64,000 nt of DNA from Asterias amurensis (taxonomy: Eukaryota; Echinodermata; Asteroidea; Forcipulatida; Asteriidae). The translations under genes and the position numbers were made by a program. Positions within the stretch are counted from its first letter, which is position 1; the number at the start of each line of letters is the position of its first letter. The stretch covers positions 8,246,001-8,310,000 of the forward strand of contig NC_092663.1 of the NCBI RefSeq assembly GCF_032118995.1, in the 5' to 3' direction. The notes beneath the pieces are model-generated. The model saw nothing but the letters and a program-made list of their open reading frames with translations, did not search any database and was not told the origin of the DNA. Below, piece after piece: positions 6,709 through 55,596 of the stretch.

Positions 6709-7551
6709 GTTTGGGATAGCCCCATAAATCGGTCCAATCCACTCCGTATCCTTGGCCCCAGCACCACCGATATCAAAACCTTTCGCTTCCTTGAAAAACC
6801 ATCTGCAACGTTCTGCATCATGAAACTTACCGATCTAATACTTCAGAAGTTGCAGATACATGTAGCACTACACTTGGAATCGTTCACATAGGTATCACAG
6901 TTTTTGAGTAAAAATCATGTGAATTTTGCGTGTGAATTTTCTCAACTAACGCTCTTTTACCGCAATGCCGATTGTCCCCAGAGACCGTGCGCAGATTTTT
7001 TCCCAGGACAAACGTGTGGAATCATCTGCACACGTTCGTCCTGGGAAGAAAAGATACCCAATCCGCGCTTTGAACTATTCTTTGTAGTTCCCAGACGCGT
7101 GTCCATATGTTTGTACACAAAGCACTGATTGGGGAACCATTCTTTGTAGTTCCCAGACGCGTGTCCATATGTTTGTACGCGAAGCGCGGATTGGGTATCT
7201 TTTCTTTCCAGGACGAACGTGTGCAGATAATTCGACATGCTTGTCCTGTGAAAAAAATCTGCACACGGTCGGGGGACAATCGGCATCGCGGCATTAGCGG
7301 TAAAAAAGAGCAGTAGTTGAGAAAATTCACACTCAAAATTCACTTGATTTTTACTCAAAATCTGTGATACCTTTTTGAACGATTCCAAGTGTAGTGCTAT
7401 TTGCAACTTCTGAAGCATTAGATCGGTAGAGTTTCATGATGCAGAACGTTGCAGATGGTTTTTTAAGGAAGCGAAAGGTTTTGATATCATCGGTGGTGCT
7501 GGGGCCAAGGATACAGAGTGAATTGGACCGATTTATGGGGCTAGTTTGGGA
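6709..7551. mobile_element. hAT-like non-autonomous palindromic element with 8-bp target duplication
   Basis: An 827-bp near-palindrome (6717-7543) starts TAGCCCCATAAATCGGTCC and ends with its complement. It is flanked by identical 8-bp direct repeats GTTTGGGA (6709-6716 and 7544-7551). Eight-bp duplications are characteristic of hAT transposons. The centre holds a tandem repeat containing GTAGTTCCCAGACGCGTGTC. Reading frames within it are products of the palindrome, not genes. Confidence 0.8.
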
Positions 7552-13822: not shown

Positions 13823-14720
13823 TCATTTATCTCCCTGTGCAGCAGTTTCAAAGTTTGCCAAAACAGCGCAGATATGGACCAGCATTTCAATGTGCGGCAA
13901 CATGTCGCATGGCAACTTGGATCTCAAGATTCCAAATGATCGTAGCCGCTGCTTCAGCATGTCAACGTGCTTGTTCAAGAGGACGGACTCCTCTTTGTAA
14001 ATAGGGTTCGTCTGTGTGATTATTCGAGGCAAAATTGGAGCTTGGAAGATGGAGACTCCTTGCATGCTGCTTATGAAACTATCGGGCTGTAACGAAAGTA
14101 CCTGATCGCCGACATGAAGGGCATAGTAGACAGAGCTTAGCTTCGACAGTTTACTTTGTAGGATCTCCCCTGAGAAGAACTTGGAGATAAAGCAGATGCA
14201 ACCGTTCGGAGTCAACCCGATGAGAGCCTTCGCCTTGAAGGTGCTGTCCAGTCTTGAGAGCATCGGTAGCTGATCCCGCAGTTGCTCCGGTGCCTCCACT
14301 TCAATCTGAAGACAGTCCAAGACGAGTCTACACTTAGGGTAGCTTCTCTTGATGCACGGTGGCATCTTGCTGAGCACTGTCTCCTTAAGTGGCCACTGAA
14401 TGCAAGCAGAAGACAGCTCCACGAGGTAGACTAAGATGCAGAGGAAGGTTTGCTCAATGGTCGCCTGGGCCACACTGAACTGAGCTGCGAGGTACTTATA
14501 CGGTGGGTCCATCCGTAGTTTCATCAGGAACATGAGAAGCCCATTCTCAGTGGTCAGACCTCCAAGTATGGGTAGGGGATCTGGAAGCTGCTCAAGGAGG
14601 ATATGAAACGTCTTTAAGGAGACACCAGTGATTTCCATGACCAGGCTGTCTGAGTAACGCACATCTTTCCAGCCGTGAAATCCGATGCAACTTCTCAGGG
14701 GGGTCGATTTTTCACCAAAG
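13823..14720 (-). CDS. Exon 2 of chimeric gene: PIF/Harbinger-like DDE domain
   Basis: About 298 residues. The frame is open back to the acceptor and begins FGEKSTPLRSCIGFHGW. It shows the DDE_Tnp_4 order: ITGVSLKTFHILLEQL (helical N-part), LLMFLMKLRMDPPYKYLAAQF, the first Asp in CRLVLDCLQIE, KALIGLTPNGCICFISKFFSG, a second acidic position near ALHVGDQVLSLQPDSF where the family normally has a M-A-D-R-G-F-like motif, and KHVDMLKQRLRSFGIL where the third acidic residue is usually Glu within HVERA-I-R-K. Here it is Asp (about residue 1136). The ending HICAVLANF matches the usual family C-terminus. Two of three catalytic motifs are degraded. Confidence 0.8.
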
Positions 14721-17700
14721 CTGTACAGGTAAATAAAAAAATTGAAACATTTTGTTAAAAATCATGACTCTATAAACTACGTACATGTAGAAGCCTTTGT
14801 TTGTAAAGTATCTGGCCATTAGATCTCAAAAAGCCATTTCTCAAAGTCTAGTTCACCTAAGTAAAATGTCTTCTTAAAAGTTACACTGATAAGAAATTGG
14901 TGATGGCACAATAATCTGAAGAAGAAAAAAATTGGTCGATTCACACTTGCAAAAGAATATTAAGCTTATTATTCAAAGAAAATATTATATATGTAAAAGT
15001 GTTTTATCAGAAGCAAAAAATCCTTATTCCTTGTTTAGCAAGAGAAATGGGATCTTTAGTCTGGTTGTATCCAATTGATGATGATTTTTCTCCCAGGTCA
15101 GCAGTTAAGGTCACGAGCCCAATGATCTACTTCCAGGGTCCAATTTCAAAGAGCTGCTTAAGCACCAAAGTAGCTACATGCAAGCACAATTAAATTATGT
15201 TTACCAAAATAAGGTCGGCAGCCAGTCAAACGCCACATGTACAATATGTGACTGGTATGGTGCATATTTTTGCTTAGCAGAAAATGTTCAAGCAATATTT
15301 TCTGCTATAAAGCAGCTCAATGAAACACAACCCAGGGCTGCTAATACCACCATTATTGTACTAAAAAGTTTCATGGTTGATACCACCAACATACCAGATA
15401 ATACACTCTTCTAAGGGCAAGGTGGATTTTCCTGAGTAAAAGGGCACCTCAATCAGTGATGTATTTGTACTGAAACATTTAAAGGGACACCAAGGCATTA
15501 ACCAGAGCCCAATTTCATCTAGCTGCTTAAAGCACTTAAGCAGTAGCTTACATATAGCACAGCTTACTATGCTAAAAATCGGAACAAGACTACCAACCAG
15601 TCTGTATAACATTCGTCATGTACAATTTGAGACTCGTATCCCGCTCATTTATGCTTAGCAGAAAATTGTTAGGCAATAGCAGCTCAATCAAATTGGGGTC
15701 GTTTTACCCGTGGGCAAGGAGATAATTTTGCCTCCATTACCCTCTGTGAAGTATCAGGGCCAAATTTCATAAAGCCTGTAAGCACTAAAACTTGCTATGC
15801 AAAGAAAGTATTGCTTAGCACTAGCAAAAATAGGTTACCAGCCAAATTTACATTAAGTTTGCTGTATTGTGGCTGGTATCTCACTCAACTTTTGCTTTTA
15901 AGCAAAGAAACTTGCCAAGCAGTATTTCTCCAGGGGCCACCAAGGCAAGTGACAGGGACATGAAGGCAATCCCACCTGATGTAGTATCAGGCCTGTACCA
16001 ACCATTTCAAACTTACAAGTTAACATCAGTTGATCCTTGAGATGCGTGATAGAGTTCCAGAAGCTTTATTGCGAGCTGATTCTTGTCAAGTCCAAGTTTA
16101 TAAGACAGGGGAAGCCAAAGGGCACTGATGCTAGGCGATAGCTTCAGCCGATTGTCAGGCTCGCGGCTGTGCGACATTCTGTACTTCTTTTGAGCAGCTT
16201 TGATGGCTTTTTTCTTCTCTGCTTGTGGGAGTCGCTTTCTGCCCCCGCCTGGGGCACGTTTTCGTTTGACCGGGAAAAGAGTTGGGTTTTTCTCTTGGAG
16301 CGTTTGCCCTGAGTGCTCGGCCTGAAGTGTATCTTGGTTGTTGTCCCTGTTCTTGGACTGGTGTTGGGAGTCTGTTCGTGATGCCTGCATGTCTGTAGAA
16401 ACTGCAGAAATTGGAGGTGTACTCTCGCACTGCCATGAAGTTTGAGGATTGTCATCATTGTGCGTCCAGTCTTCTGAGAGGCTGTTGTCTGAATTTGAAT
16501 AACTTTCGGTGTCGCTTGATCTACTGTGATAGTCTTTCATCATCCCCTTGCTACGTAGAACAGCCACAGGGGTAATTCTGAGACAGTCATTGGTGTAGAC
16601 TTTCCTACATTCAGCATTAGTTGAAATTATTTTCACTTTGTCACTGAGGGAATGAAGTCCTACAGGGGCATCAATGTACCATGGACCAGTCTTTGGTGCT
16701 GTTTCTCTAGGTCGTTGCCAAAACAAATCCGGGCGGTTTGGATTCAACTTTGACAAGTACTTTTGAAATGACCTCACAGGACATTTGTCAGAGTTTGAAA
16801 TCTCGAACATAGCACCCTTGGTAAATTCATGATCGTCTTCACTGAAGCTATGGCCACATTTTGAGACATACTGATTATAATTGTTGTCTCTGGCAACCGT
16901 GAAATCGCTCGGCTTCATCTCTTGCATGCGGTATCGGTTTGATTTGCCCAAATAAACCATAATGTCAAAAAAGACTTTATTCTGGAGTCCCCTAGGAGAT
17001 TTCATATCCAACTCAGGGGAAGATTGAATTTTGTCCATATCGGCTGCTGAGATTGGAGTTTTGTGTTTGATTACCACTTTGCCTCCTTTCCGTATGCTTA
17101 TAAGAATATCTTTAAAGACTTTATTGCTCCCTTTAAATTCAGCACTCTTTTTGCAAATGTCCCAGTTATGCAGTGTTTGAAAGTACCTCTGCAATCCATA
17201 CCTGATCCCTTGCATTGATTTCTTAGTGTACATTTGCCCATCAAACTTACGCAAGTTGGCATAGAATCGACAAAGAAACTCATCTAATTCTCTCATAGAC
17301 ATAGCTTCAACCAAGGGTATCGATGAACCAAGATGCTTGGCAAACACCTCCAACCTTGTCAGTGCATATCTGAGCTGTCTGTTCGTGCTCTTAGAATCTT
17401 GGACTTTCATCAGATCTTTAAGATTTATGGATGACAGAAAAGAGAACGAGGGAAGATCTTCTGAAGTTTCTGCTGTGGCTAGATCTGAAGGCTTGGGTTG
17501 TTTAGGTTGTTCAGTTTGAGAGTGAGGGTGGTCCTCTTGTAATTGTTGAGAAGCAGATGCACTCTTGTTACTGTTCTCATCCTTGAGCAGCGATAAAGAA
17601 ACATCAGAAAGAATCTCTTCCGATGCAGAGTCTTGAGTGTTTTCCCCAGACCTACATAAGATTTCCAATCCATCCTTGTTTGAAATCTCCCTGTCAGCAG

Positions 17701-18664
17701 CCTGTCTCAGCGAGCTTGCAATGCGTAAAATACCAACAGGAGTCGCCTTAAGACAATTGTTTGTGTACAATTTACGACAACCCGCATTTGCTGAGATCGT
17801 TTTCATTTTGGAGCCGAGTGTGTGCAGTGGTGTTGGGCGACTAATGTACCAGGGTCCAACGTCTGGTACATGTGGGATTGGTTTTTGCCAAAATATATCA
17901 GAGCGTTTGGGATTCAATTTTGATAAGTATTTCTCCAAGGACGCTACGGGGCATCTGTCATAGCCTGGGATTTCATACATAACACCCTCACATGAGCTCT
18001 CACTGTTGACGTCACGACTTTGACATGTATTTTGACTGCAGTTTGTTACAATTACATAACGAATGTTATCTCCAGTTCTTGAAAACGTAAAATCATTCGA
18101 CTTCATGTCACGCATTTTTTCACATCCGACAATCCCAAAATATACTGTGATGTCGATGAATACCTTATTCTGTAGCCCAGTCGGGGAACTCAAATCCAAC
18201 TCATTGGATGTTTGAATTTTGTTCATATCCGCCACAGAGATCGGACCCTTGTGTATCACTTTATTATTCTTTCCTTTCCAATTCAAGTTGACCAACATTC
18301 CCTGAAACACCTTATTACTGCCAGCAAATAAGGCATTCTTACAGAGTTTCCAGCTGTGCAAGGATTGGAAGTGTCTCTGCAGGCCAAACCGAATTGCAAG
18401 CATCGATTTCCTTGTGTACGCTTGGCCGTCGCTTTTCCGTAAACTTGTGTAAAATTGACAAAGAAAATCGTCGAGTTCACTGATTGTTAGAGACTCCACA
18501 GACGCCATGGTCGTACCTACAGTTCTTGTGTAAGCTTCCAGTCTGCTTGTCGCATATTTAATTTGCTTGACTGTGTTTTTAGAGTCCTCAACGTTGAGTA
18601 GGTCTTTCGAATCGGGATATTGCGCCGAGGCGAACCCTGGAGTTTCTTCCGAACTAGCCGCCAT
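13823..18664 (-). CDS. Chimeric gene: two Crypton/DUF3504-like domains plus a Harbinger-like DDE domain
   Basis: Predicted two-exon gene (18664-16017 joined to 14720-13823) encoding about 1181 residues. The 5' exon codes for two diverged Crypton-type tyrosine-recombinase-like domains (about residues 20-320 and 413-706), an acidic/Ser-rich linker, a basic stretch (799-828) and a short helical module (838-874). The 3' exon encodes a DDE_Tnp_4 domain related to PIF/Harbinger transposases. The join is supported by a perfect GTAAGT donor overlapping the apparent stop, a pyrimidine-rich acceptor (CCTGTACAG), and exact phase agreement (TT+C). The start ATG has a good context (ATAATGG) and an in-frame TAA lies 11 codons upstream. 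Catalytic residues are changed in all three domains, so DNA binding rather than transposition is likelier. Additional exons inside the intron cannot be excluded. It faces the Rnd gene head to head. Confidence 0.7.
14721..16016 (-). other. Intron 1 of the chimeric gene
   Basis: Begins GTAAGT and ends in a T-rich tract plus CTGTACAG. It contains several copies of the 'aagctgctaagca' repeat family (about 15136-15345, 15510-15700 and 15771-15935), with motifs such as CAATTTCAAAGAGCTGCTTA and CAAATTTCATAAAGCC. There is also a fragment of the CCTTGG repeat near 15410-15500. No additional coding exon is evident. Confidence 0.55.
16017..18664 (-). CDS. Exon 1 of chimeric gene: tandem Crypton/DUF3504-like domains
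   Basis: Uninterrupted 882-codon exon. The two halves are clearly paralogous: VADMNKIQTSNELDLSSPTG against AADMDKIQSSPELDMKSPRG, LQNKVFIDITVYFG against LQNKVFFDIMVYLG, and CRKLYTNNCLKATPVGILR against CRKVYTNDCLRITPVAVLR. This arrangement (LQNKVFF ... YTN+CLRAT) is that of DUF3504 proteins derived from Crypton tyrosine recombinases, as in the ZMYM/QRICH1 group. In the usual YTNHCLR box, the first copy has N303 and K306 in place of His and Arg. The second has D693 but keeps R696. The first copy also reads FGIVGC where family members usually have an Arg. No clear C-terminal catalytic Tyr box follows either copy. Both are probably inactive as recombinases. Confidence 0.8.
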
Positions 18665-19344
18665 TATTGTTGTTGATAGTTTGTCGGATCGTTTTTAACG
18701 CACTTGTACAGCAACAATGAATCGTATCCGAACAGATGCATTAAGCAGTCCATTATTGACAAAACAAATGTTTTGCGTTTTGTTCGTAGTGAACACAACA
18801 ATGCTGGTGATGGGGGATAGACAAGGGATTTTTCTTATTTATTTTTCTTTATGGAGATAATTTGTATGCTTCATTTATGTCGGACCTTTTTTTATGGGCA
18901 AATTGTTTTTCCCCCGACATTTTCGCTCGCTGGACACCAAAAATAATAGTCTAGCGCCCTCAGTCGTCATAATCATAATTACACTCAGGGGTACGTGTGA
19001 CGGAGGTGTGTCTCATTCGAGTCAAATGATTGGTCAATGGAGTAAAGCGGGGACGAGTCAGCCAATGATTAGCCACAGGCTTATACCGGCATTTGATTGG
19101 TCAAGCATCTACGCATAAATGAATACTTAAAATCGACACGTGACGCTGGAGTTGTCAACCTGTCACTCACGTCTCATAACAGCCAGCTAGCCACAGAGAG
19201 AAACAACGCAAATTATCGTCTGCTCCTACCAGTCAGCTACCAAAACATTGCAGTGTATCGGGAAAAATATTGTGTGTTAGCTGGTACAGCGAACTTAATT
19301 CTAGGCTTTATTTTACAATTTGGAAACAGACAAACTTTGCCAAA
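18665..19344. promoter_or_regulatory. Candidate bidirectional promoter between the chimeric gene and Rnd
   Basis: The two start codons are divergent and about 680 bp apart. Three CCAAT boxes cluster at 19029-19033 (ATTGG), 19062-19066 (CCAAT) and 19096-19100 (ATTGG), spaced about 33 bp apart. No TATA box is obvious at a convincing position. The 5' UTRs of both genes must lie here unless there are upstream non-coding exons. Transcription start sites cannot be placed from sequence alone. Confidence 0.5.
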
Positions 19345-19470
19345 ATGCGTCGGCAACGTTCGATGATGGTTTTGAATGAAGTTGTCCGGAATAAACTCGT
19401 TGTTGTCGGGGACACAGGCTGTGGAAAGTCTGCGTTGCTCAACACATTTCTGGGTCACAAGTTCACAGAC
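19345..19470 (+). CDS. Rnd exon 1 (start, P-loop)
   Basis: Codes 42 residues from MRRQRSMMVLN to KFTD and ends at GAC|GTAAGT in phase 0. The ATG at 19345 has A at -3. The short basic N-terminus ahead of KLVVVGDTGCGKS fits Rnd proteins, which have N-terminal extensions. Confidence 0.9.
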
Positions 19471-22400
19471 GTAAGTATTGAATTTCTGTAATAATATTTA
19501 TATGTTGTTGTCTTGTGGCATTTTTTGTATAAGTCTCCATCTATTTCTTGAGGTTAAATTATTGTTTTTATAGCCTCCACCTGAGAGACGAATGTTTTGG
19601 TATCGAAATTGTATCCAATGGCGACGTGCATTATAAATGTATTTCATGTTGCTGTGTAGAAATAGTTCGGTGAACATTTCTGTATTCCACTTTCGGATGT
19701 AAGCCAACAATAATGTCTGTTATTTAAAAGTTTCGCTCTTTCAAATTTGTGATAAAGTTCATAATTTGGTTTTAGCAAATGTAACTTTTCTTCCAAAGTA
19801 AAATGAAAGACTGAAATTTACTTTTTAAATAGACAGCAAAGTTTGATCTATCGCAGTAAACACAATTTTCTGAATATTATATTAAAAAAGTACACGACTG
19901 CAGGATTTGTTTGGTTGGAGGTGCTACTATTGGCAATATTTCGCCAATTGTCAATTTTAAAATTACAGGATTCTCACTCATCAGATCAGTGGATAAAATT
20001 TTCACAGGTTTGTTATTTTGTACTTATGTTGAGATACAGCAAAGTGAGAAGACTGGTCTTTGACAATTACCAATAGTGTCCACTGTCTTTAAAACATTGA
20101 TGTAATGAAAATTTCGTAAAGGCTTATAAAATATATTATAGGTAACAGGCTCTCCAAATTTGCCAGTCAATTTCCAAACTGAGTTTCCAAACCATACACT
20201 TACAATACATTTTACATAAAAGAGTAAAGAAGGAATATGGTATCAAAACCGAAAACAGGGTGTCCAAACGACACCCAGACACACCTCTGGCTAACTGTAT
20301 GATGGAAATGATTAGGAACAACACGACAAATTTTAAACTAAGTTGTTCCATCCCTTTAAGGTTTTGTTGAGAGGAAACGCGCCATGGTGTCAAGAGATAG
20401 TGGTATGGAACAAGGGAAATGAGTCCACCAGTCTGATGGGGCATCATAACCCAATGTCAGCCCGGATGAACCCAAGGGCAATGCAATCATAAACTCTGTC
20501 TCATTGCAGAATAATGATCATGAAACCCCAAAACCAAAAACAGTCAACAGTACACGTGACCTGGTATTTTAGCCGGTAGATTTTACTAGTATGCGAATTA
20601 CCACTAACAGTCAGCAGAATTTGATGGTTTGTGTTAATTTGGCATCAGGGATGAAGATCAATATTTGGTTTTTCACCTTACATTGATGTATATTACACAA
20701 TATACACAATGTGTTAAAACACATCATCAGTGTTACTGTTAGTGCAAAAACAACCAAAGAAAAACAATATGAGTAGTTGAAGTTTTTTTTTTGCTAAGCT
20801 TGTTTCTTTCAAAGGATTTGAGGAATTGCATGGTAATGTATATTTGGTTTGCGGTAACACCATGTGTATTTTTCTTTTGTTTAAGCAACTCAAATACATT
20901 TGACCTAAAAATTTGAATCAGATTATAAAAAGGGTGTACAACCTGCAATTTTTTATTTCAGTGCTAGTGTTTTCCCCAGACCTACATAAGATTTCCAATC
21001 CATCCTTGTTTGAAATCTCCCTGTCAGCAGCCTGTCTCAGCGAGCTTGCAATGCGTAAAATACCAACAGGAGTCGCCTTAAGACAATTGTTTGTGTACAA
21101 TTTACGACAACCCGCATTTGCTGAGATCGTTTTCATTTTGAAGAAAAACAATATGAGTAGTTGAAGTTTTTTTTTGCTTAGCTTGTTTCTTTCAAAGGAT
21201 TTGAGAAATTGCATGGTAATGTATATTTGGTTTGCGGTAACACCATGTGTATTTTTCTTTTGTTTAAGCAACTCAAATACATTTGACCTAATAATTTGAA
21301 TCAGATTATAAAAAGGGTGTACAACCTGCAATTTTTTATTTCAGTGCTAGTGACAAAAAGGTGTATAAACATCAAAACCCATCCTCTGTGGATAAAATAG
21401 CTGTAACCACAGCTCCAGACCTGTGTCATGTGGGGTGTGGAAGCCCTAAGGCATTATACAGTCTAAATGCAACATAAATTGTATGATGCTTAATTTTTAC
21501 AAAGGTGCTTAGCGATAATAAAGTCTGAAGTGAACAACTGTTTCCGCTTGAAACTGTTGGAACTGTATTTGTAGTTATTTTCTGAACTACACAACTTGTA
21601 CACTTTTTAAAATGTTTGTTTTCCAATTTTGTGCTTTTCCTCACAGATCTACTCTCCAACCACCTTTGAGAGTTACTCGTCAACAATGGAAATAAACAAA
21701 TATAGAATAGATCTGACTATCTGGGACACATCAGGTAAGTCACATATCCAAAACAAGGGGGTGATAATGAGTTCAATCCCCTGAGGTAAACCCAAACTCT
21801 GTAAATTATATTAAGTAATGTGTGCCCAGCCACAGTCATGGGTACACTTTCTGTTAAAAAGAAACCAACAATAATAAACATGATACAAACATTGAGTAAC
21901 TCTTTGCAGGATTTATCTTGTATTTGACAAACTCAGCACTTTTTTACCTTGAAATAGCAATTATTAATTGATATATAAATAACAATGAAACTACTGCTAT
22001 GTCAGTGGTTTTCAAATTTTCTTAAAATGGACTCCAAAAAAGTGTAGCCATGATCCTTGCTGACTTGCTGTGCACACCATAAGAAAAGCGACCCGTCATT
22101 TCATATTTTGTCAGAGGGCAGCCTACATTGGCCAGGTGTTCTAATATTGCTCCAGCTGAACCCAGGTCCCCATAATCTAAAAGAATTTTAATTGGTATTT
22201 GAGTATTCTGTCAGAACTCGTATTCATTTCATTCAGTTTCGTGGATAACTTTGCCCAGAGCTCTGTTTAGGAAAAAATAATTATGTTGTTCATTAAGGAG
22301 GAATGCAATCACTGATCCCTTTCCATGGAATGTTTTTATTGTCATTTGGTCACCCTTACACAAATACAGCTCTAACGCCCCATGTGTTTGTGGACTCCCC

Positions 22401-25400
22401 CAACCACCTCAGACCCCATGGCCATATGTGTACATTTTTGGCATTGTTTACCCTGTGGTCAAGTCTGCTGGAGATCTATATATAGTAATTTTTTGATTAG
22501 TACAATTGAAACAAAGGATGTTTTCCCCTAAATGAATTCAGAGGTAAAACAAAATTAAAGGGAGGCATTTTTTGATTGACTTACAAAAGTGATTTGAATG
22601 ATTGAACCTCAAAATTTAAATCAAGGTAAACCAAACAAAAAATAAAGCAAAATATTATTATTATCATTATTAAAGGCAAAATACATATAAGAAAATAAAT
22701 TTCTAGATTAAGTTCTGAGTTTACTCTACAGTGGCTCTCATTTCAAAGAGCTACCGAAAAAATGTCACCCTAAGCAAATTTAAGTAGGATACCAGTGTTA
22801 TCATTGCAGTCTGGCTACCTTAAAAGCAGTGGACACTATTGGTAATTACTCAAAATTATTATTAGCACAAAACCTTACTTGGTAGCGAGTAATGGGGAGA
22901 GGTTGATAGGTTGTTTTTTATTTCATTTTTATCTCCCAACTTTGATGACCGATTGAGCTTAAATTTTCACAGTTTTGTTATTTTATGCATATATGTTGAG
23001 ATACACCAAGTGAGAAGACTGGTCTTTGACAATTACTGATAGTGTCCACTGTCTTTAACACCAATCGAAATGTCTATGAGAAACCTACCAGTGTGTGTAG
23101 GTTACAGACTTTCAGTTTCACAACTTCTCTTATTACTCCAACAATGAGGGGGAATAAATCAAAACCTTGGTGGGTGTTGTTGACTGTACAGGTAGGTACA
23201 GATCATGTCTCCCTATATATATCAGCATGTTGTCAAATGTTGGCAGCTGAGCCAAGAATTTACTAAGACTACTGATACTGGATGCTCTTGACCCAAAAAT
23301 TGTTTTGTCTGTGGGATTGAATTGACTTATTGTACAATCTTTGGTGTTTACATATTTTCAATGGTCCACAAAATATTTATTGGTCGGACCACCTCCATGG
23401 TCTAACGTTTCGACCCTAACAGAGTCTTTCTCGAAGGCTACACACATGTAAAAGTGGGATTATTTTTTCAGAAGAGGAATATATATACAATTAGTTCCAT
23501 CCACATTTTTTTCTCCACACAACCATTCACTCCCACAAAATCCTGTTGAAACAATGACTGTATTAATGTTTTACAAGCATACCAAGCAGAGTCCAACAGT
23601 TTGATTGATGAGTAAGAAATGATCCTTGTGAGCATCAATAGAATTACAAAAGTCACCCAAGACCCAAATCACCAGGAGAGGAGGAGTTTACACAAATATT
23701 GCTTAATTATTCAGAAGATGAAAAATTCCAGTAGTATTTCCCCATCACGTTTTCCATTACCAGACAGAATGGCCACAAGCTATTGGATTGTTTTGAGAGT
23801 GCTGAAGGATCCCAGTATAATCACAGATGGGAGTTAGGGGGTTAATTAAAAGAATCACTCTACATTTTAATTATGAAGCGTTTTTTTGTGGAGTGGTTGG
23901 ACTGAAAGTAAACATGAATTGCATCAGGAAAAAAAAACTGTTTTCCTTTTTAATACTTGAGCAGAGACTAGGTGTAGCTGCACCTGAAGTATGTGGATTT
24001 TGAACAAGATTATTAATGACTTGATGATGTCTGCAGGGTGAAAGATTAACAGGTTGTTACACAGTATTTCATTGACATTGCCATCAGAGAAAGTGCTCTG
24101 TCAAGAGATAGTTGTTTTCCCTGGGCAGCAGAGGGGGGTAAAGGTCACCTTCAAGCCCATATTTTGAGTGATTTGTAAATAGTGGTTTCAAGAGATTACC
24201 TCCACCCAACTTGTCCACAAGAAAGCAAAACAAACAGTATCTCTGAAAACACACCCACATAAAAATAAGCCACATAAATTGAATGTCATAAAACTACAAA
24301 GCAGTTCGTAGAATTTCGATGGTGCAGACATGCACTTATTGTGGTACCTGTGTATAATTGAAATCTCTCTTTAGGTTGTGTTGGTTCTAAATAGAGCATG
24401 CATTGGTGTAGACTAACAACACAATTTTTTTTATCATCAGATGATCCGAACGTCTTTGATATGAGGTTAAATTTCTTCTTTAAAATGTTCAGCATGTAAA
24501 ATCTCAGACATACTTTATCACAGGGCAGCATGTTTCTTTAAATTAATTTTTTTTGTCAAATAAACAAATGCTGTACCAATGCAACTCAATATCCATGAAT
24601 GCCACTTTTTTGGCCAACCTAGACTTGTTCTTTTGAAAGCTGCCTGATCCATATCCGATGCTAGTTCAATACAAAAGAACATCTGGAGCTTATAAGAAAA
24701 GCAGAAAAAAAAATCATCCCTAAAACTTAAGCCCCTGGAAAATGGACTGTTCAAACAATATTGTGTGGAGGTCTTTCAGAAAGAAGTTCTGAACAAAAAC
24801 AAAATTGTGTTTGGATTGTAATGGAATGCCAAAGTGTCACATTCTTTGCATGGTTGAAAACTAATCCAGAGAATTATAAGGGTGGAATATTTACTGTTGG
24901 ATTCTGGTTCATGTTACATTTCACACATGGGAAAGTCTGTAAGTCTGTGGTAAATCGTGCTCAGTGTTATTCTGTTTCTTCAATTTATAACTTGGGAAAA
25001 CTCAATTTGTAACCACTGGCAGATTTGACAACACTGCTGTAAAACAAAAATACATGTATGTTTGTTTTCCAGAGCATTTGAAGTAATTTACAAACTTGGG
25101 AGAACAACAAACTTAAAGAAAACAAACTTTAAATATAAAAGTGTTGGGTAACTGTTCTGCAAATTTTAAATGAAAATATCTTCATTGATATATGAGGAGG
25201 TAATGATTTTTAGAGACTCGTAAATACTTATATAGGGCCGAAATACCTGCTTTTCCTGGTATTATGGTAAAATTGTATTTCGCCATCTACATAAAACTAC
25301 CTGGTTTTAGCAATTTTAACAATTGGTGCAAGTTTTGTAAATGAAGCTGATTTATCATGGTTGTTTCCTTGTAAAAAAACACCACATTTGCTCTTTTAAA

Positions 25401-48553: not shown

Positions 48554-49390
48554 GCTGCTTATCAAGGCCTATGTAAGACAAAATGTATCTGGTCTCCTGT
48601 TTAATATGCGATAAAGACTTTTAAAATACAGGAAAAAAAAAAAACAGGATGTGTTTCCTGTGGTAAACAATAAGTGACGCACTTACATGATGTACATCTC
48701 AGCATTAAGTGGTATATACTACAAACAAAATCCACACATTATTGCAGCCTGCGATTAATTTATATTCAGTAGATGTGTAACGGTGCTAATACATGTACAT
48801 TTAAACTAAGAAAGTTGAGGGACATAGTCAAAAATACATGGTACACGTACATTGGTTGGGCCATCCTGCTACATGTACACTGTACTTGTATAGCAATCCT
48901 TTTATACACAGGGATAAGTTGTACATGTTTAAATATAGTGATGTTGGTTTTGTTAGCGAAGTCACATAAGTCGCTGCTTATCAAGGCCTATGTAAGACAA
49001 AATGTATCTGGTCTCCTGTTTAATATGCGATAAAGACTTTTAAAATACAGGAAGAAAAAAAAAAACAGGATGTGTTTCCTGTGGTAAACAATAAGTGACG
49101 CACTTACATGATGTACATCTCAGCATTAAGTGGTATATACTACAAACAAAATCCACACATTATTGCAGCCTGCGATTAATTTATATTCAGTAGATGTGTA
49201 ACGGTGCTAATACATGTACATTTAAACTCAGAAAGTTGAGGGACATAGTCAAAAATACATGGTACACGTACATTGGTTGGGCCATCCTGCTACATGTACA
49301 CTGTACTTGTATAGCAATCCTTTTATACACAGGGATAAGTTGTACATGTTTAAATATAGTGATGTTGGTTTTGTTAGCGAAGTCACATAA
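48554..49390. repeat. Near-perfect 419-bp tandem duplication
   Basis: Both units start GCTGCTTATCAAGGCC (48554 and 48973) and run through ATCTGGTCTCCTGTTTAATA, an A-run, and GTTTTGTTAGCGAAGTCACA. They differ by one A/C substitution and A-run length. Direct head-to-tail order indicates recent unequal crossing-over or replication slippage, or possibly an assembly artefact. Confidence 0.9.
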
Positions 49391-53942: not shown

Positions 53943-55004
53943 AGGCAAGCAATCCGACAATTCATAACAAACACAAAAATTTGTTTTTCGCATTTCCTTA
54001 CGACAAGAATCAAGTATACTACTAAAATATTTCCTTCCTCTCCGCTCCACAGACCACTACTACACATCAGCAAATTAATACTTCGCGTTGGTAGGCTGCT
54101 GTTTGTTTTTCGTGTTTGGTTGAATTAGTCTTCCGTTATTGTATTGTCTTGTTTTTTTAAAGCCTGAATGAATAAATCAATAAATAAACAAATGCAAAAA
54201 AATATTTTAGTACGGAAATATGGGCCATGCACATCAGTGGTTTTAGACGCGAAAGGTCCCGCCTTTTTGTACGCGCCAATGTGTGGATATGTTTGAAATT
54301 GTATTCCGGTGGAGCCGTGGATCTTTGACGAACTGGCGGTCTGACTGCCAGGCGGGAACATTAACAAGACCGTGGGCCTCGGTCTGGGTTTGTGCGGCGA
54401 GACGGCCGGCACGAGTACCCCACAATCACTTTTTGGTTACGGAAACGATCGGAAACGGGATGCGTCTGGAGTGTTTTTACGAATACAAAAAAATAAAATC
54501 CCAGAAAATAAATTCCTACTATCAATATTGCCGCGACTTGTGAGAAATTTTACAACCGACACATCCTCATGATTCAGTGAAAGGAAGACTGTCAGACCAT
54601 TTCTTCTCTATGATTGATGGTCAGACGATATCGATGGAAAGCCATTTTCTGTATGCAGGTCGCCGTATCCCGACACCGGGACACCGGCGACCGGCATCCT
54701 GATTCGTGGTTGGATCACGCAACGCAAACAGAGACGGAATTCCGGTGACGAACATATTGACACTTTTTTAATCACTTTTATGTTTCGTTCTAATGGGCAT
54801 GTTCCGTATAAGAAAGAGTTATTAGTCTTGTTTCGAGGCGTATTTGTTTATATATATCTTTTTTTTTAAATAATAATTGTTCAATAGGCCTAGCCGAAAA
54901 TAAGAAGGTTCATTCTATAGCGACTGTTTGTTAGGAGACTAAATGTACGCTGCATGGCTGTGATGCATATAGCTACGTAACTGCACCACCATTGAAGGCG
55001 CACC
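53943..55004. other. CpG-rich intergenic stretch, no supported gene
   Basis: Bases about 54240-54740 are CpG- and GC-richer than the surroundings (for example GTTTGTGCGGCGAGACGGCC). Short frames exist on both strands but none shows a domain, consistent splice pattern or compelling start. A promoter or unannotated first exon is possible. Confidence 0.3.
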
Positions 55005-55596
55005 ATCACTAACTTCAAATAATTATATTAAGGGAACGCGTTGCCTTGGATTGGTCGAGTTGGTCTTTGAAAAGCGTTTGTATTCATTTGTTATAAAATG
55101 CATGACTAGAAAGATATTTTATAAGTAGAATATAATTATCCACACAAGTATCACTCGAAATTGCGTTTTTCCTTTTACCTCGTCGACAAACACGGTCGGT
55201 CATTCACCACTAACTTCAAGTAATTATATTAAGGGAACGCGTTGCCTTGGATTGGTTGAGTTGGTCTTTGAAAAGCGTTTGTATTCATTTGTTATAAAAT
55301 GCATGACTAGAAAGACATTTTAAAAGTAGAATATAATTATCCACACAAGTATCACTCGAAATTGCGTGGTTTTCCTTTTACCTCGTCGACAAACACGGTC
55401 GGTCTTTCATTTACTCCCATAAATGGCAGACCGTGTTAGTTCGCAAAGTAAAAGGAAAACCATGCAATTTCGAGGCAAATGTGTGTGGATTATTGTATTC
55501 TACTTTTCAAACATCTTTCTAACCATGCATTTTATAACAAACGGTTACAAACGCTTTTCTAAGACCAACTCGACCGATCCAAGGCAACGTGTTCCT
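55005..55596. repeat. Palindromic 'GGATTGGTCGAG' element with duplicated left arm
   Basis: CACTAACTTCAAATAATTAT plus the arm starting AGGGAACGCGTTGCC (55031) recurs as CACTAACTTCAAGTAATTAT plus the same arm (55232). The second continues into a full palindrome ending CAAGGCAACGTGTTCCT at 55596. The flank has been duplicated along with the arm. Confidence 0.75.

Follow-up and report, generated by a model that had tools for sequence, protein, structure and literature searches.

A probable locally templated insertion between duplicated flanks in an intron of a Rnd-like gene of the sea star Asterias amurensis

Patch-mediated tandem duplications are said to have been described in rice by Vaughn and Bennetzen in 2014. 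Among the closest counterparts to the structure treated here are the 'cycles of templated insertions' of the PCAWG cancer genomes, which are presented in PMC7025897 as strings of copied segments that return to re-replicate the host segment. In Caenorhabditis elegans, animals lacking HELQ-1 accumulate tandem duplications of ~100 bp to 10 kb whose junctions occasionally carry templated insertions, according to the account in PMC8654963. Rice tandem duplications are ascribed in PMC7971508 to repair at adjacent nick sites, and the proportion of events that are tandem duplications drops there from 70% to 5% by a length of 200 bp, to level off at that value. Small tandem duplications have also been traced to complementary 3' overhangs, with involvement of CST/Pol alpha-primase (PMC8355091, as summarized there).

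Here, we describe a structure of this general kind in the forcipulatid sea star Asterias amurensis. The window analysed is a stretch of 64,000 bp (C16:8246001-8310000), and the structure occupies positions 20757-21352 of it; coordinates given without a contig are positions in the window. Its features, together with those of the two genes concerned, are as follows.

13826-18508, minus strand: source gene; the annotated 1129-aa protein maps to blocks 18508-16016 and 14719-13826 (tblastn).
17636-17810, minus strand: template, coding DNA within the first mapped block of the DUF3504/QRICH1 gene; 171 bp of it were copied, and a further 4 bp (AGTG) are common with the recipient.
19471-21646, plus strand: intron 1 of the Rnd-like gene, with GTAAGT at its start and CACAG at its end.
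20757-20969, no strand assigned: flank copy 1, 213 bp, within Rnd intron 1, aligned to copy 2.
20782-20876 (widest extent), no strand assigned: dispersed-repeat fragment within flank copy 1, with a counterpart in copy 2; seen in 52 of 54 genome-search rows, with inverted ends in loci L003 and L004.
20966-20969, no strand assigned: AGTG microhomology at the left junction, common to the flank end and 17636-17639.
20970-21140, no strand assigned: templated insert, 171 bp, in the orientation of the source, with exact identity to 17640-17810.
21141-21352, no strand assigned: flank copy 2, 212 bp, aligned to copy 1.

The anatomy agrees with what a reading of the sequence alone (hereafter the sequence-only reading) had proposed. 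The insert matches its source without a single difference, and the identity extends to 175 bp (20966-21140 and 17636-17810) when AGTG is included. Source and insert lie in the same orientation, with a start-to-start shift of 3330 bp and 3159 bp in between, which is the ~3.2 kb of the earlier description; the source copy is still in place, so that the insert is an extra copy. The host segment is re-replicated around it: the two flanks align with 209 identities of 212, the differences being 3 substitutions and one T absent from a poly-T run, and their ~98% identity likewise stands. The insert sits at the exact boundary of the two flank copies, with no flank lost. The proposal of a tandem duplication carrying a patch with a local template is supported by this arrangement, an exact copy of a sequence ~3.2 kb away lying between two copies of the flank. 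The name given to the host gene is consistent with its exon 1 (42 aa from 19345, plus strand), which finds its best match in RhoE/Rnd3 chains (E = 9.9e-5).

With this anatomy, the locus appears to answer to the description of a cycle of templated insertions having one insert. Like the PCAWG cycles, as characterized in PMC7025897, it has a copied segment set into a host locus, part of which is itself re-replicated, so that the order becomes host-insert-host, an outcome grouped there with tandem duplications; those cycles, however, are somatic and typically run between chromosomes, local forms being classed as n-jumps, whereas the sea star structure belongs to a reference genome, is presumably inherited, and drew 171 bp from 3.2 kb away. 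With the helq-1 duplications, explained in PMC8654963 by theta-mediated joining of failed SDSA intermediates, it shares the size range, junction microhomology and the occasional templated insertion; where theta-mediated end joining would show short microhomology at its junctions, the sea star locus has 4 bp at one and 0 at the other. The rice events of PMC7971508 (2021) offer a long duplicated stretch read as adjacent-nick repair, but tandem duplications are what that study scored, whereas the sea star locus also carries an ectopic patch. The geometry of overlapping 3' ends and fill-in is that of the complementary 3' overhang duplications (PMC8355091), one configuration of which had overhangs of 43 bp, while 213 nt would be needed in the sea star. 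Finally, templated insertions attributed to TMEJ in the human pangenome share with it a local template and microhomology at the switch, but were scored, as set out in PMC11724358, among complex substitutions with tandem duplications removed. The architecture is already known from other organisms; new are the species and the legibility, the scar being clear and little decayed, with its source, both junctions, polarity and microhomology all readable.

Copy number was established in a genome of 491,506,623 bases in 23 contigs, with a DNA search that skips very common words, so that absence elsewhere is a statement bounded by the search tool. The whole structure (20757-21352) returned one full-length place plus the source (40 of 867 first-look candidates scored), and the 2652-bp source ORF returned two places, source and insert (both candidates scored); within these searches, no further genomic place came up for the copied piece or for the flank pair. 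That the copied piece should occur at two places is far beyond chance. The other 52 of 54 rows obtained with the whole structure are matches of 26-98 bp confined to the inner part of the flank. They mark a repeat fragment that is older than the duplication event and whose limits do not coincide with the event's breakpoints. A dispersed element with inverted ends is present at L003:1218-1574 and L004:1172-1576, with apparent short target duplications (~9-11 bp) as judged by eye, and one end fragment of it lies in the Rnd intron flank; the upstream part of the Rnd intron holds another dispersed repeat.

The source gene contains a minus-strand ORF of 883 aa with the Pfam domains DUF3504 and QRICH1. 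Its protein, which the Asterias amurensis record calls uncharacterized, has the further domain entries PF13613 and PF13359, both transposase-type families; two DUF3504/QRICH1-type repeats and a transposase-like part can be distinguished in it. A host gene model thus unites two kinds of domains, both probably derived from transposons. The copied part corresponds to residues 234-291, belongs to a DUF3504 domain, lies wholly within one exon of the two-block model, and aligns with the second DUF3504 repeat of the same protein. It also aligns in part with all 14 other homologues retrieved by a whole-protein search, and it is in that search only that its conservation is visible: a query of 91 residues around the copied codons found the source protein itself and no other (1 protein from 92 candidates). 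On the whole evidence, copying ran from the gene to Rnd intron 1, because the copied piece is conserved coding DNA; the reverse direction, from intron to gene, is rejected on the same ground.

At the left junction, source and recipient share AGTG (20966-20969 and 17636-17639), the microhomology already remarked upon in the sequence-only reading, and it is there that a top strand whose 3' end lies at 20969 would pair with the source. At the right junction, no base is shared at the breakpoint, and past one mismatch two bases of source and recipient match again. Among ~200,000 random junctions from this region, at least 4 bases are shared in ~2.1% (P = 0.021 per junction) and none in 54%. The probability that an unrelated template would fall within 3.5 kb by chance is ~1.4e-5, and the nearness of the template is therefore far from chance.

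We consider it probable, at roughly 0.7, that one germline event with local DNA copying, by whichever route, made a second copy of 212-213 bp of Rnd intron 1 and set the 171-bp patch between the two. The insert lies exactly at the flank-copy boundary, and one event therefore explains its placement directly; the 4-bp microhomology, found at the junction where the left 3' end would prime, also speaks for a single event. The larger share of that probability goes to a route through a broken end, with overlapping ends and AGTG priming, which taken by itself stands at somewhat under even odds. Along this route, the germline lineage of the sequenced Asterias amurensis chromosome would have suffered a break, or two nicks, from which a pair of ends emerged with an overlap of 213 nt. 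The left one, a 3' end terminating in AGTG, would have annealed to AGTG at 17636-17639, been extended by 171 nt and released, and the extended end would then have been joined, with no microhomology, to the filled-in right end. Read from left to right, the path of synthesis or joining runs from 20969 to 17640, then from 17810 to 20757. The anatomy, the number of copies, the polarity, the microhomology and the direction of copying can be read directly; that a single event made the structure, how the break lay and which enzymes acted are what we infer. Counting against the broken-end route are the right junction with no shared base at its breakpoint, the length of the overlap beside the 43-bp overhangs cited above, and the drop in the proportion of tandem duplications with size in rice (PMC7971508).

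The same single event could also have been replicative, by template switching of the FoSTeS/MMBIR type: a nascent strand would have left at AGTG, copied 171 bp from 3.3 kb back, and re-entered 212 bp upstream of its exit. The expected product is the same, the pieces all lie in one orientation within 3.8 kb, and the first switch carries the 4-bp microhomology, although the second junction carries none. PCAWG cycles, too, re-replicate their host segment and are discussed in PMC7025897 as replication-based copying. We regard this route as possible but doubtful, and it shares the probability given to the single event; the final sequence alone cannot separate it from the broken-end route.

A quite unlikely alternative divides the history in two, an ordinary tandem duplication coming first and a templated patch entering at its junction later. 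Its appeal lies in the flanks, which differ by 3 substitutions and an indel when the insert shows none, and in the plain tandem duplication present in the same window at 48554-49390. The substitution difference (0 of 171 in the insert, 3 of 212 in the flanks) is not significant (Fisher P = 0.26), nor does counting the indel and the 175-bp span bring it below P = 0.13. Insert and flanks are compatible with one age, and the 3 differences against 0 weakly hint at different ages or at a flank from the other homologue. A later patch would, moreover, have had to hit the junction to the base and leave both flanks complete; this placement favours joint origin, whereas the substitution counts do not tell one event from two. 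As for absolute age, the individual of PMC11090083 is reported to have a heterozygosity of 0.96% (k-mers) and 0.632% heterozygous SNPs. These figures belong to the individual of a published assembly of 482,994,179 bp, a length that identifies it as another assembly than the one searched here; the same paper names PRJNA1017625 for its PacBio reads and estimates the split from Asterias rubens at ~28 million years. By the heterozygosity figures, the event falls in the age range of ordinary polymorphism or slightly beyond it, or else flank copy 2 derives from the other homologue; it is probably recent.

An artefact of assembly or library, either a chimeric molecule or two alleles placed in tandem, is unlikely. 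The flanks differ at 1.4% of sites plus the poly-T indel, which is near the 0.96% reported for the PMC11090083 individual. An assembler would presumably not join sequences on a 4-bp overlap, however, and it would also have had to make up the 171-bp insert; the whole structure is also short enough for one long read.

A highly improbable alternative has a piece of source mRNA reverse-transcribed into the break. The sequence-only reading had set aside a retrocopy partly on the ground that the source was intronless, and that premise does not survive: the 1129-aa protein of the annotation is divided between blocks 18508-16016 and 14719-13826. The copied piece nevertheless lies inside one exon, and introns therefore cannot exclude an RNA template. 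The other half of that argument stands, as the insert is without a poly-A of its own. A retrocopy proper is rejected on this point and because a 212-bp flank repeat is far too long for a target-site duplication. Against an RNA patch more generally, the junctions show no poly-A or poly-T tract beyond those found in both flank copies, and the source is only 3.2 kb off on the same chromosome, a coincidence of ~1.4e-5 for a random place, though templating by a neighbouring transcript would soften that figure.

A mobile element, inserted with a very long target duplication or bearing long terminal direct repeats, can practically be dismissed: although the repeat-insert-repeat outline would suit it and the partly similar C1:5034065-5034345 has a repeat-family insert between 76-bp repeats, an element of transposon or LTR type is rejected because the genome searches brought up dispersed copies neither of the flank pair (40 of 867 candidates scored) nor of the insert (2 of 2), the inserted sequence comes from the coding part of the neighbouring gene, and no inverted repeat of at least 30 bp occurs in 16000-24000. 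The absence of a known transposon signature is upheld.

The sequence-only reading had further suggested a recurring process on the strength of duplications at 48554 and 55005. Both are indeed duplications, but the first is plain, with no patch, and the second lies in a repeat family, which leaves recurrence weakly supported. The 48554-49390 feature is a 418-bp tandem duplication found at one genomic place. Its copies differ by one substitution and, at a poly-A run, by an indel of two bases, and a 3-nt filler (GTC) marks the junction; it is young. The tandem pair at 55004-55409 belongs to a repeat family, inverted copies of which lie close by. Elsewhere in the window, 6759-7498 shows nested inverted repeats and a 62-bp tandem pair, with the look of a fold-back element.

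A base-rate scan for direct repeats (at least 40 bp, at least 90% identity, period up to 2500) covered 314 kb, comprising the 64-kb window, 5.0-5.1 Mb of C1 and of C3, and 5.00-5.05 Mb of C5. Its first 264 kb held 34 direct-repeat pairs, 20 of them in two satellite arrays on C3; two long arrays with a period of ~245 bp extend over C3:5068387-5073640 and 5085653-5090026 (L027-L030). The full 314 kb yielded 6 low-copy pairs (up to 6 copies in the sample), a limit that dropped higher-copy pairs, including the one at 55004. Three of the 6 have at least 20 bp between their copies: the Rnd intron, C1:5034065-5034345 (129 bp) and C1:5055292-5055400 (23 bp). Among these three, the Rnd-intron insert is the one with a traced local source. 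The pair at C1:5055292-5055400 (L016) consists of 43-bp direct repeats (95%) and has 4 copies in the sample. No rate is to be drawn from so small a sample, the more so as the window was picked for this feature.

C1:5034065-5034345 (L014:4065-4345), where direct repeats of 76 bp (96%) enclose a GC-rich insert of 129 bp, is a closer second case than either 48554 or 55005, but its insert is a genome repeat. No template for that insert was found in the scanned 314 kb; it belongs to a dispersed GC-rich family, whose 53 other matches all fall within the limits of the insert (34 of 34 candidates scored). Family members at L037-L039 showed no direct repeat flanking the element itself, and an Rfam search of the C1:5034065-5034345 locus gave 3 matches, elsewhere in the locus and all below the gathering score. 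At C10:6324911-6325595, pieces of the family recur every 197-199 bp, which suggests that repeat and flank were amplified together.

Within the Rnd transcript, the insert runs antisense to the mRNA of the DUF3504 source over 175 nt. It is most likely a neutral scar. An unlikely but larger proposal is that the sea star germline often makes flank-insert-flank events, which would be a steady route of DNA pieces into introns, and which here would also have supplied the Rnd pre-mRNA with an antisense copy, perfect over 175 nt, of coding sequence from the gene next door, out of which antisense control might arise. A narrow literature search, which says little on what is in print overall, found no report of such events in sea stars or other echinoderms. 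One case changes no rule. What the locus offers is a clean example, found in the reference genome of an echinoderm, of an architecture whose best descriptions come from cancer, and a genome-wide count of such events would show whether templated cycles feed intron growth and the shuffling of gene pieces in animals.
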